From Methylobacterium gnaphalii (lineage in GTDB: Bacteria; Pseudomonadota; Alphaproteobacteria; Rhizobiales; Beijerinckiaceae), in NCBI RefSeq assembly GCF_007992215.1, contig NZ_BJZV01000002.1:124001-188000 (forward strand): a DNA stretch of 64,000 nt. The letters are read 5' to 3'. The notes below the pieces were generated by a model. The model was not told the DNA's origin and ran no database searches. It was given only the letters and a program-made list of their open reading frames with translations. Both the position numbers and the translations under genes were made by a program. Below are positions 58,131 to 61,333 of this stretch, piece by piece (within the stretch, counting starts at the first letter, position 1; each line of letters starts with the position of its first letter).

Positions 58131-58826
58131 TCACACGCCGTTGGCCGGCTCCGTGCCTTGATCGCCGTAACTCGCGACGATGACCGGCTTCTTACCGCGG
58201 ATATGCTCGCGCATCCGCTTGGCCAGACCCTCGCTGTCGCGCGCGCGCAACCGATCCATCAGGCCCTCGTGTTCCTCGACAGCCATGGCCCATTGTTCGT
58301 CGGTTTGATGCGCCTTGTAGCGTGAGCGCTGCGTGCGGCCGCTGAGACTGCCATAGATCGATTGCAGCGTCGCATTGCGGCTCGCGCTCATGATCGCTTC
58401 GTGGATCTCACGGTTCAGACGAAAATATTCGACCTCGTCTCGCGCGTGCCAGGCTGCAATCATGCTGGCGTGCTTCTCCTCAATCGCGACGATTTCCTCC
58501 TGATCGATCGTTCGACAGGCGATGTCGCACGCTGTCGCCTCGAGCCCGGCGATCACCTCGATCATCTCCTCGATCTCAGCTTCCGAGATGCTGGCGACCC
58601 GGGCGCCCCGGTTCGGTAGGAGTTCCAGCAGCCCTTCCGTGGCAAGGATCTTGATGGCCTCGCGCAGGGGCGTGCGCGAGATCCCGAAGCGCTCGGTCAG
58701 CTCGCCCTCGTTGATGCGCGCCTTCGGCTCCAGTTCGCCCGTCTGGATGAGCTCGCGCATGCGCTCGGCCACCTCGTCGTGCAGGTAGCGCCGGTTGATG
58801 CCGATGCCGGCCTCGATCTTGGTCAT
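58131..58826 (-). CDS. GntR-family regulator, FCD (FadR-like) type
   Basis: 231 residues. N-terminal winged helix (RRYLHDEVAERMRELIQTGEL, INEGELTERFGISRTPLREAIKILATEGLLELLPNRGARV; about 10-80) and C-terminal all-helical FCD ligand domain with metal-binding residues (MIAAWHARDEVEYFRLNREIHEAI). Possible self-operator ATTGGTCCATAAG overlaps its start. Ligand unknown; the crotonase next to it and the CitE-like lyase 3.6 kb away are possible targets. Confidence 0.9.
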   Translation of the reverse strand: MTKIEAGIGINRRYLHDEVAERMRELIQTGELEPKARINEGELTERFGISRTPLREAIKILATEGLLELLPNRGARVASISEAEIEEMIEVIAGLEATACDIACRTIDQEEIVAIEEKHASMIAAWHARDEVEYFRLNREIHEAIMSASRNATLQSIYGSLSGRTQRSRYKAHQTDEQWAMAVEEHEGLMDRLRARDSEGLAKRMREHIRGKKPVIVASYGDQGTEPANGV

Positions 58827-59048
58827 TGGTCCATAAGATTTTGGCGGCTTTCCCGAAAAAGGCCAAGCCGTTCGACGCTAGGCTGAGCCGTGACGCATGT
58901 CGAGCGGACTACCCGTGATTGAATGCGGCGGCCACATCAAATGTCATGAGTGCGCGGTAGCCGGCAACTGGACTTATGGCTCTCTGGCGACGTTCCGTGA
59001 CGAGTCCGCCGCTAGGTGACCATGCCTTCGGCCGCAGGTTTGGCCGGC

Positions 59049-59684
59049 TCACGTATCAGCGTCGCCTGCAGAGGCTGCCCAGGCCTGAACTTGGTCCATC
59101 CAGGCATCCGGCGAAAGGATGGCGATGCCCGGCAGAACCATCAGCGGTGTCACACGCTCCGGCCTGTCGCGTTCACCGAGTCTCACGGCTCCCTTCCTCG
59201 CGAAAAGCCGCAGAATCTCGGTGAGGCGGGTCTCCTCGGGGGGATCACTGCGGGCCGCAGTACGGATTGCCTCGGCAATATCGTCGGTGGTGCATTCCAC
59301 CACGCCGTCAGTGGTGACGCGGTGGTCTCGCAGGCCTTCCTCGTAGGCGAGCCTGAGCGCGAGCAGGACGAGCGTCTCGTCCTTGCGCAGGCGTTCCGCG
59401 GGCGCATCGTGCCGTGCACCCTCTGGCGGCACGCGCAGAAAGACCATTTGATCGCGGTGCGAGACCTCGAACTCGTAACCGAGGCAGGCGAAGTAATCGC
59501 GGAAGAACGGCGCGTAGTGCCGTGCGAGCTCGTAGGAGCGGCCGATACCCGGGGTCTCGGCATAGATCACCTGGATCTTGAGCAGTGCCTGCAGGGCGCG
59601 GGTGAGGTCCTCCTCGCCAGGTGACCGCGTTCCAGCTGGCGGCGGCTCGTCTCCGTCGACGATGGCACGGAAGGGCTCAAGCAT
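59049..59684 (-). CDS. jetB: JetB-like KITE subunit (DUF4194) of an incomplete Wadjet/Mks system
   Basis: 211 residues from the ATG at 59684, overlapping jetA by 8 bases. DUF4194/MukE-like winged-helix protein: RALQALLKIQVIYAETPGIG, FFRDYFACLGYEFEV, MVFLRVPPEG, ETLVLLALRLAYEEGL and LTEILRLFARKGAVRLGE. In Wadjet this subunit joins the kleisin JetA and the SMC ATPase JetC. The gene expected next, jetC, is absent: after the stop there are 222 non-coding bases and then a GntR gene. Confidence 0.85.
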   Translation of the reverse strand: MLEPFRAIVDGDEPPPAGTRSPGEEDLTRALQALLKIQVIYAETPGIGRSYELARHYAPFFRDYFACLGYEFEVSHRDQMVFLRVPPEGARHDAPAERLRKDETLVLLALRLAYEEGLRDHRVTTDGVVECTTDDIAEAIRTAARSDPPEETRLTEILRLFARKGAVRLGERDRPERVTPLMVLPGIAILSPDAWMDQVQAWAASAGDADT

Positions 59685-61059
59685 GAGGGGCTCGCTCGAC
59701 GATGAAATCCGGGCAGTCGAGCCAGCCATTCACGATCCGGCCCTCCGCCCGCGACAGGCGATAGCGGCGCGAGAGCACGCCGTCGAACAGCACGTCGATC
59801 TCACGAAGTCGCTGGAACACCACGAAGGAATCGACATCCGCGATTGGGATGCCCGAGCCGCGGATCGATCCGCCATCCGCCAGGAATTGGCGTTCGAGGA
59901 AAGCCGCGATCGAGTCTGGCGTCACCGTCGTGCGCCGGCGGAAGGCGTCCTTGGCCTCGACGAAGGCGTCGATTGCTGGGTCGCTCGCGGCGTCCAGGAG
60001 CGGTTCGGTGACGATCGCGCGACGCTTGATTCGGGGAGCATAGAGATGCGGCGGGCCGATCGGCGCGCGCGTGAAAAGGATCGGCGGCGTCGGGGCCGTC
60101 GCAACATCAGCGACGGCTCCTACCGCCCGTAGCGTTGCCGCCGTCCGCTCGATCCGCGCGGAATCGCGGTTGCCCTCGTAGCGGAGTGCTGCCGCGATGC
60201 GCCGCTCCATCCGCGCGACAATATCGGCAACCACGTCGAGATGCCGATCGAGGCCCTCGAAGATCGTGAGGATGTCCGTGAGTTCACCACGCACGGTCCG
60301 CTCAGCAACCTCGACACTGGTCGCCCTGCCCTCACGCACAGCGCCCTCTGCCAAGGCGCGTACGGTTAGCGGGTCGCGCAGCGCTCGGCCGGCCTCGCGG
60401 ACGATGCCGGAGCGAAACCGGAATGGATTGAACCGGGTGTGCAGCGTCCGGTAGTCGCTGACGAGGTAGCGACCCACGAACTCCTCGAAATATAGCCGGA
60501 AGGCCGATCTCAGATCGTCCTGTGCGAGGATGCGCTCCTCTATCTTACGCATGGCGCCTGCGAGACCGCGCAGATGGCCGAGGAAGTCGCGGGAGGCCTT
60601 GGCGGCATTGCTCAGCGCTTCTGAGCGTTCGCCCGGATTAGAGGTGGCGCTCTCCAGCGCGCTCAGCACGTCCAATACCGCTCCACCGTAAGACCGGGTC
60701 TCACCGCGATCGAGCCGGGCGAGATCGTCGAGGAGGAGGCGCGCCTGAGGATCGAGATCGACGACGGGCACGTAACGCTCGCGCCGCTCTACCAACCAGC
60801 CCGCATCCAGCAGCCGGCGATAGACCGCCGAGCGCCGCTCCACCGGATCGCTGGGCGTAGTGTCGTCGTCGGCGATCTCAGCCTGCGTCCAGTCGGCGCA
60901 GAAGTCTCCTATCGCCGTCAATAGCTCGCTCTTGCGCAGAGGCTCCATGATCTCACCGAACAGCCGCGTGTGCAGATGCAGCAGTAAGGCTGCATTGAAG
61001 GCGCGGCTCGGCGAGGCCAGCGGCTTGAACAGGTCGTCGGAGAGGTGGGTGAAGAGCAT
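59677..61059 (-). CDS. jetA: JetA-like kleisin subunit of an incomplete Wadjet/Mks system
   Basis: 460 residues from the ATG at 61059 (MLFTHLSDDLFKPLASPSRA), the start used by relatives; 21 codons upstream are in frame but not conserved. Winged-helix N-terminus, a long helical middle (LRGLAGAMRKIEERILAQDD, FEGLDRHLDVVADIVARMERR) and a C-terminal winged helix (VVFQRLREIDVLFD, YRLSRAEGRIVNGW). Matches the JetA family of Wadjet, equivalent to MukF/MksF. Complete in length and apparently intact. Confidence 0.82.
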   Translation of the reverse strand: MLFTHLSDDLFKPLASPSRAFNAALLLHLHTRLFGEIMEPLRKSELLTAIGDFCADWTQAEIADDDTTPSDPVERRSAVYRRLLDAGWLVERRERYVPVVDLDPQARLLLDDLARLDRGETRSYGGAVLDVLSALESATSNPGERSEALSNAAKASRDFLGHLRGLAGAMRKIEERILAQDDLRSAFRLYFEEFVGRYLVSDYRTLHTRFNPFRFRSGIVREAGRALRDPLTVRALAEGAVREGRATSVEVAERTVRGELTDILTIFEGLDRHLDVVADIVARMERRIAAALRYEGNRDSARIERTAATLRAVGAVADVATAPTPPILFTRAPIGPPHLYAPRIKRRAIVTEPLLDAASDPAIDAFVEAKDAFRRRTTVTPDSIAAFLERQFLADGGSIRGSGIPIADVDSFVVFQRLREIDVLFDGVLSRRYRLSRAEGRIVNGWLDCPDFIVERAPHA

Positions 61060-61333
61060 GGCTATACGGATGGAGGACAACCTGGCGTGCGGGCGCAGGT
61101 CAAGGATCCGCACGCCCGGCACGATGCGTTAGGGGCAGCGCCGGGCCGTTATACCCTGGTTCGCGGCTTTGACTGGCTCCGACGCGGTACACGGAGGCCC
61201 ATGCGCGCACCTCTCGAAAGCTGCTGCTGCTGCGCAGTGCCAATGCGCTGATAGCGACGCTAACCGCGAATCGCGTCCTCTGCGCGATCACCACGAGTAA
61301 CCGGCAGAAATGGCGAGCCGCAACCTCGCCGTT

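Follow-up and report, generated by a model that had tools for sequence, protein, structure and literature searches.

The jetA and jetB genes of the window

The window, by which we mean the whole stretch of 64,000 nucleotides of Methylobacterium gnaphalii that was analysed, carries on its minus strand two genes, jetA and jetB, that encode the kleisin and the KITE subunits of a JetABC-type SMC system (Table 1). JetA matches the Pfam family PF18982 (E 8.9e-67, 226 bits for a cut-off of 26.2), JetB matches PF13835, DUF4194 (E 2.8e-21, 76.4 bits for a cut-off of 32.7), and the PADLOC models JetA1 (E 2e-211) and JetB1 (E 8.5e-116) are both matched over almost their full length. The preliminary description of this DNA had recognised an intact, overlapping pair of kleisin and KITE genes and had recommended a profile search of the two proteins; the kleisin and KITE matches and the overlap of the genes bear it out. 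It had also pointed to gene-free bases 3' of jetB, with the short frame ATG-GTC-ACC-TAG and then a GntR gene, and the coordinates and Pfam matches agree with this. The four-codon frame alone carries no meaning, and the GntR/FCD regulator is a neighbour of jetAB that lies outside the system. No jetC match was found in the 5 kb 3' of jetB, and simple patterns found neither sigma-70-type promoter-like nor terminator-like sites between 58700 and 61500.

Table 1. Positions of the jetAB genes and their surroundings in the window, and of jetC in the same genome
Feature	Position	Strand	Remarks
jetA, kleisin subunit, 460 aa	59677-61059	-	ATG start; PF18982 and PADLOC JetA1; the listed frame opens further upstream, at a GTG (61122)
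jetB, KITE subunit, 211 aa	59049-59684	-	PF13835 (DUF4194) and PADLOC JetB1
Overlap of jetA and jetB, 8 bases	59677-59684		
Gap 3' of jetB, 222 bases without notable gene	58827-59048		Where jetC follows in many relatives
ATG-GTC-ACC-TAG within the gap	59023 down to 59012		
GntR/FCD regulator adjoining jetB	58131-58826	-	PF07729 (E 5.1e-25), PF00392 (E 4.9e-17)
jetC, on another contig of the window's genome	G000:C1:289472-292915 (= L032:5473-8916)	+	Frame open over 1189 codons

Compared by sequence with solved structures, JetA and JetB gave no meaningful match, and chance matches were all that resulted for a JetB of a JetD-bearing genome. The top fold matches of the predicted JetA model (mean pLDDT 67.5, modest) were Wadjet-II JetABC and MukBEF chains, and those of the JetB model (mean pLDDT 58.6, low confidence) were JetABC chains of the E. 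coli and P. aeruginosa Wadjet systems; MukF and MukE chains were also matched, all of which, coming from modest models, serves as support only.

A single jetC on another contig

When the window's genome was searched for the SbcC Walker B family, one place was found, a single jetC gene on another contig. The PADLOC JetC1 model fits its product over the whole profile (1780 bits), the sequence resembles solved JetC chains (8as8, E 1.9e-12), and the ATPase motifs are intact: Walker A (GPTGAGKST), signature (RGSGGEAQ) and Walker B (LGLCLLDEAFSKLD) are the same in 25/25 aligned JetC sequences. One of these 25, from genome G007 (L040), carries a stop codon in frame near codon 811, possibly an assembly error. 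The closer end of contig C2 is about 183 kb away from jetAB, and that of C1 is 116.7 kb away from jetC, so that the two loci are separated by at least about 300 kb, provided that the assembly is correct.

Two origins had been proposed for the isolated pair, a recent deletion of jetCD or partnership with an SMC protein encoded elsewhere. The second is supported by this full-length jetC, and also by the genus, where 47 of 51 genomes carry jetA and jetC on the same strand of one contig and where the two genes are always found both or neither (59 genomes). The first finds no support, with jetC intact elsewhere and the JetD domains absent throughout the 99 genus genomes sampled. A search of the rest of the genome for an SMC ATPase with a nuclease, also suggested at the time, succeeded for the ATPase and failed for the nuclease, of which no JetD_C match was found.

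Arrangement and evolution of jetABC in the genus

Among 59 Methylobacterium genomes, 51 carry both jetA and jetC, 8 carry neither, and no genome has just one of them; the other 50 JetA proteins have 62-86% identity with that of the window. In the larger sample jetC occurs in 84/99 genomes, a count from which the match in G101 (a short stretch, E 5e-4, in a 571-codon frame) was dropped. By contrast with a two-gene unit universally without jetC anywhere, which would have spoken against the first reading of the locus, jetC is present in most of the genus genomes sampled.

The two genes share a contig in 47 of the 51 genomes with both, always on the same strand (47/47). The gap between jetA and jetC measures 0.7-1.7 kb in 20 of these genomes, which leaves room for little beyond jetB, 2.5-5.7 kb in 26 and 12.5 kb in one. 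Five jetB-jetC gaps were read: the fifth contains several unrelated genes, and the other four a gene that by eye resembles a chemotaxis receptor (L037:11486-13207, L038:7544-9259, L040:5564-7615 and L041:10988-12703). The genes lie on different contigs in 4/51 genomes, one of which, G050, has its jetB cut by a contig end. In G027 the split separates jetA from jetBC, in G032 jetC is on a contig other than that of jetA, and in G058 jetA, jetB and jetC are all kilobases apart. The parts of JetABC may be scattered, yet all are kept in the genome. Matches broken over two pieces, which may be assembly errors, were seen for jetB and jetC of G122 (L117) and for jetA of M. segetis (L104).

The flanks on both sides of jetAB are common to M. 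brachythecii, M. haplocladii and Methylobacterium sp. C25, and no jetC was found near jetAB in these three within flanks of about 9-10 kb. The full jetABCD that the preliminary description had suggested looking for at this locus in relatives was not encountered, the closest ones keeping jetAB there without jetC. The jetC neighbourhood, for its part, is common to the window's genome, G032 and G100.

Pairwise distances of JetA, JetB and JetC correlate over 25 taxa (r 0.94-0.95). In 12 comparisons dN/dS ranged from 0.06 to 0.21, values that are rough in the several cases where dS is near 1. Between the window's genome and G032 the ratio is 0.11 for jetA and 0.09 for jetB, and both genes are under purifying selection. 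In the same pair of genomes the JetC distance (0.06; L032:5473-8916) is far below those of JetA (0.155) and JetB (0.153; window 59049-61059).

The missing JetD nuclease

Neither the C-terminal family of JetD (JetD_C, PF09983) nor its N-terminal family (DUF3322, PF11795) was found in any of 99 genus genomes, while the positive control, Corynebacterium glutamicum, was matched in both searches. Since the JetD domains are missing from 99/99 genomes, the lack of jetD is no peculiarity of the window locus. When 8 JetD proteins were combined into a profile, it recovered those 8 and nothing in the genus loci examined. Across 385 sampled genomes of the class, six had a JetA above the cut-off: two are members of the genus and have no JetD, and the four from outside the genus all have JetD within about 8 kb (4/4). 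G371 and G385, with JetA matches below the cut-off, have no JetD_C match, and G438 has a weak JetD_C match and no JetA. In G093, outside the genus, a second JetD match about 108 kb from jetA (L085) is broken over three frame pieces and is perhaps a decayed copy.

We also considered a replacement nuclease encoded beside jetC. No constant fourth gene was found 3' of jetC in 26 loci, read over up to 3 kb each (less than 700 bases in two of them) and forming 12 groups with no coding segment in common; with the contents of the five jetB-jetC gaps, given above, this led us to reject the candidate for the adjoining genes. The N-terminal IFDR motif of JetB is said, in a review (PMC10586767), to touch JetD. 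By eye, x-D-R occurs in only 3/8 JetB proteins from JetD-bearing loci, so that the motif does not discriminate JetD loss.

Smc-ScpAB in the same genomes

ScpA was found in 0/51 genus genomes with JetABC, that of the window included, and in 7/8 of those without it. Outside the genus, 37/40 genomes from other families of the order have ScpA, the three misses being 67-90% complete, and JetA occurs in 1/40; ScpA and JetABCD are found together in G093. The SMC hinge family was detected in 0/51 genomes with JetABC, 3/8 without and 26/40 of other families. Its model performs weakly in this class, recovering 3 of the 7 genus genomes that have ScpA and missing Caulobacter. One genus genome, G038, is 100% complete and has neither JetABC nor a detected ScpA or SMC hinge.

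A search of the window's genome with SMC_N gave 19 matches, none of them in a frame of more than 766 codons, and no Smc was found. The proteins above the cut-off were named by reading their translations as RecN (50.7 bits), RecF (53.9 bits with neighbours) and an ABC exporter (40.3 bits with neighbours). The same model gives 184.2 bits for the genus's own Smc and 28.3 bits for JetC. Where the genus has its own Smc, ScpA and ScpB (L145, L148), the gene order in L148 is argS-SPOR-nagZ-scpA-scpB-tatABC, with scpA, scpB and nagZ identified by Pfam and the other genes by reading. Fisher's test on 51/0 versus 1/7 yields 2.3e-8, a value that ignores the kinship of the genomes and on which we do not rely; the presence of JetABC and of ScpA follows relatedness, and the contrast of 51 with 7 genomes may represent a single evolutionary switch.

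Plasmid-borne and other relatives

JetA matches were found in 9 of 72,556 plasmid records, of which 8 were examined, one of them from Methylobacterium. The JetA-bearing 'plasmid 1' of M. bullatum isolate mbul2 (L155) is a linear record of 2.83 Mb and perhaps part of a chromosome. The closest relatives outside the genus are those of Rhizobium leguminosarum pRlX5 (45% identity) and Salipiger (36%), both with a plasmid-borne jetABC; no JetD was found within 17 kb in either locus, including the 3.4-3.9 kb 3' of jetC. Since these plasmid loci are JetD-less too, the loss of JetD does not in itself point to a chromosomal role. On pRlX5 an N-acyl amino acid synthase gene (FeeM, E 1.1e-31; L150:14251-15018) follows jetC at the place expected for jetD.

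JetD is present in the plasmid loci of Azospirillum, Erythrobacter, Microvirga and Vibrio. On the plasmid of Vibrio nigripulchritudo (L157:10071-14793) the jetC region is annotated in two pieces around an IS3 transposase, followed by jetD. On that of Synechocystis sp. B12 (L156:8025-13945) jetA and jetB adjoin TniB, TnsA and transposase genes, and neither jetC nor jetD is annotated nearby.

In trees of JetA and of JetC, both arbitrarily rooted and with long branches flagged by the program, the JetD-less sequences (9 Methylobacterium, Rhizobium and Salipiger) stand on one side of a branch with a support of 97/97 for JetA and 100/100 for JetC. As they group together in both trees, the loss of the nuclease may predate the establishment of the complex in Methylobacterium.

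Comparison with known SMC systems

The system resembles Wadjet type I in that its kleisin, KITE and SMC match PADLOC JetA1, JetB1 and JetC1 and that jetA and jetC, where they share a contig, share the strand. It differs in having no JetD domain in 99/99 genomes, in genes that are often apart and sometimes on different contigs, and in that JetABC is found where ScpA is missing. In the window's genome JetA, JetB and JetC are thus all present, and JetD and a single operon are not, jetC being on another contig; we do not file it as a Wadjet defence system, because both JetD and the one-operon order are lacking.

With MksBEF of P. aeruginosa the system shares a MukBEF-like SMC, a kleisin and a KITE without a nuclease. 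MksBEF coexists with Smc-ScpAB in P. aeruginosa, according to PMC8357415, whereas here ScpA was not found, and JetB scores 17.2 bits against the MksE profile PF21980, below its cut-off of 27. Judged by its sequences, JetABC would work like MksBEF but is not filed under the MksE profile.

The MukBEF of enterobacteria offers another likeness, as an SMC complex that apparently replaced Smc-ScpAB in a whole lineage (PMC10586767); here PADLOC JetC1 fits over the full length, and Smc-ScpAB would have been displaced independently, inside a single genus. Smc-ScpAB itself would share the proposed role and shares the three-part layout of SMC, kleisin and KITE, but its Smc and JetC are far apart in their SMC_N scores, as given above. 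The same review speculates that MukBEF, and likely MksBEF, descended from a defence complex (PMC10586767). Further background was drawn from parts of PMC10123090, PMC8357415 and PMC4255302.

A nuclease-free JetABC as probable chromosomal SMC complex

We consider it likely that, in most of the Methylobacterium sampled and in the window's genome, a working JetABC without JetD has superseded Smc-ScpAB as the SMC complex of the chromosome. JetA would be the kleisin and JetB the KITE of a JetABC complex whose ATPase, JetC, would be supplied from a distant locus. Two JetC would join at the hinge, JetA would bridge their heads and JetB would bind the kleisin, and the complex, acting as a loop-extruding motor, would move along chromosomal DNA using ATP. 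Because it has no nuclease, it would be unable to cut plasmids the Wadjet way. Formation of the complex and loop extrusion are probable, as is the chromosomal role, to which the distribution of the genes points. The system is probably to be seen as a JetABC without nuclease where ScpA is not found, rather than as a plasmid defence that is missing two genes.

We also weighed a JetABC that is still directed against plasmids, the part of JetD being played by a nuclease, unrelated or strongly diverged, whose gene lies elsewhere. The PADLOC models do place JetABC in Wadjet type I, and a nuclease of a different family would escape the JetD_C, DUF3322 and JetD-profile searches. We nevertheless hold this explanation to be improbable: no constant fourth gene accompanies jetC (26 loci, 12 groups), the jetB-jetC gaps hold chemotaxis-receptor-like or unrelated genes or, in 20/47 genomes, fit little beyond jetB, the complex is found in 51/59 genus genomes with subunits diverging in step, in contrast with defence systems, whose spread is usually patchy, and the absence of ScpA would be left unexplained.

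An accessory JetABC, comparable to MksBEF of P. aeruginosa, beside a main condensin that is either a too-diverged Smc-ScpAB or another complex, has a similarly small, if very slightly better, chance of being right. P. aeruginosa has both kinds of complex (PMC8357415 and PMC4255302; for the role of MksBEF, PMC10586767), and the SMC hinge model is weak in the class. The distribution of ScpA, present in 7/8 genomes without JetABC versus 0/51 with it, argues against such an arrangement, and so do the SMC_N matches of the window's genome, none of which lies in a frame of Smc length, the three above the cut-off being RecN, RecF and an ABC exporter by their translations. Least credible by far is a decaying remnant, in which jetCD was recently deleted and jetAB is functionless; it would account for jetC not following jetB at the window locus, but jetC is intact elsewhere in the genome, and jetA and jetB are under purifying selection (0.11 and 0.09 against G032) and kept in relatives with the same split.

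Taking JetABC as the chromosomal complex, the Methylobacterium case fits the idea of descent from defence and adds a lineage with a nuclease-free complex and without detected ScpA. Among the titles and abstract openings of the open-licence literature on Methylobacterium and Methylobacteriaceae we found no earlier report on the subject. For annotation, software that counts jetA, jetB or jetC alone would label a probable housekeeping complex as defence.

In a wider reading, to which we incline with somewhat less assurance, chromosome folding and segregation in most of Methylobacterium is the work of a domesticated Wadjet JetABC, which shed its nuclease and displaced Smc-ScpAB. This switch would be distinct from the one to MukBEF and caught within one genus, with the JetD-less plasmid cousins in other alphaproteobacteria as possible intermediates. 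Smc-ScpAB and the nuclease-free JetABC both occur within this one genus and overlap in 0/59 genomes sampled for JetA and ScpA; because both states exist there without overlap, comparison of close relatives would make it possible to test how a plasmid defence turned into a chromosome organiser.
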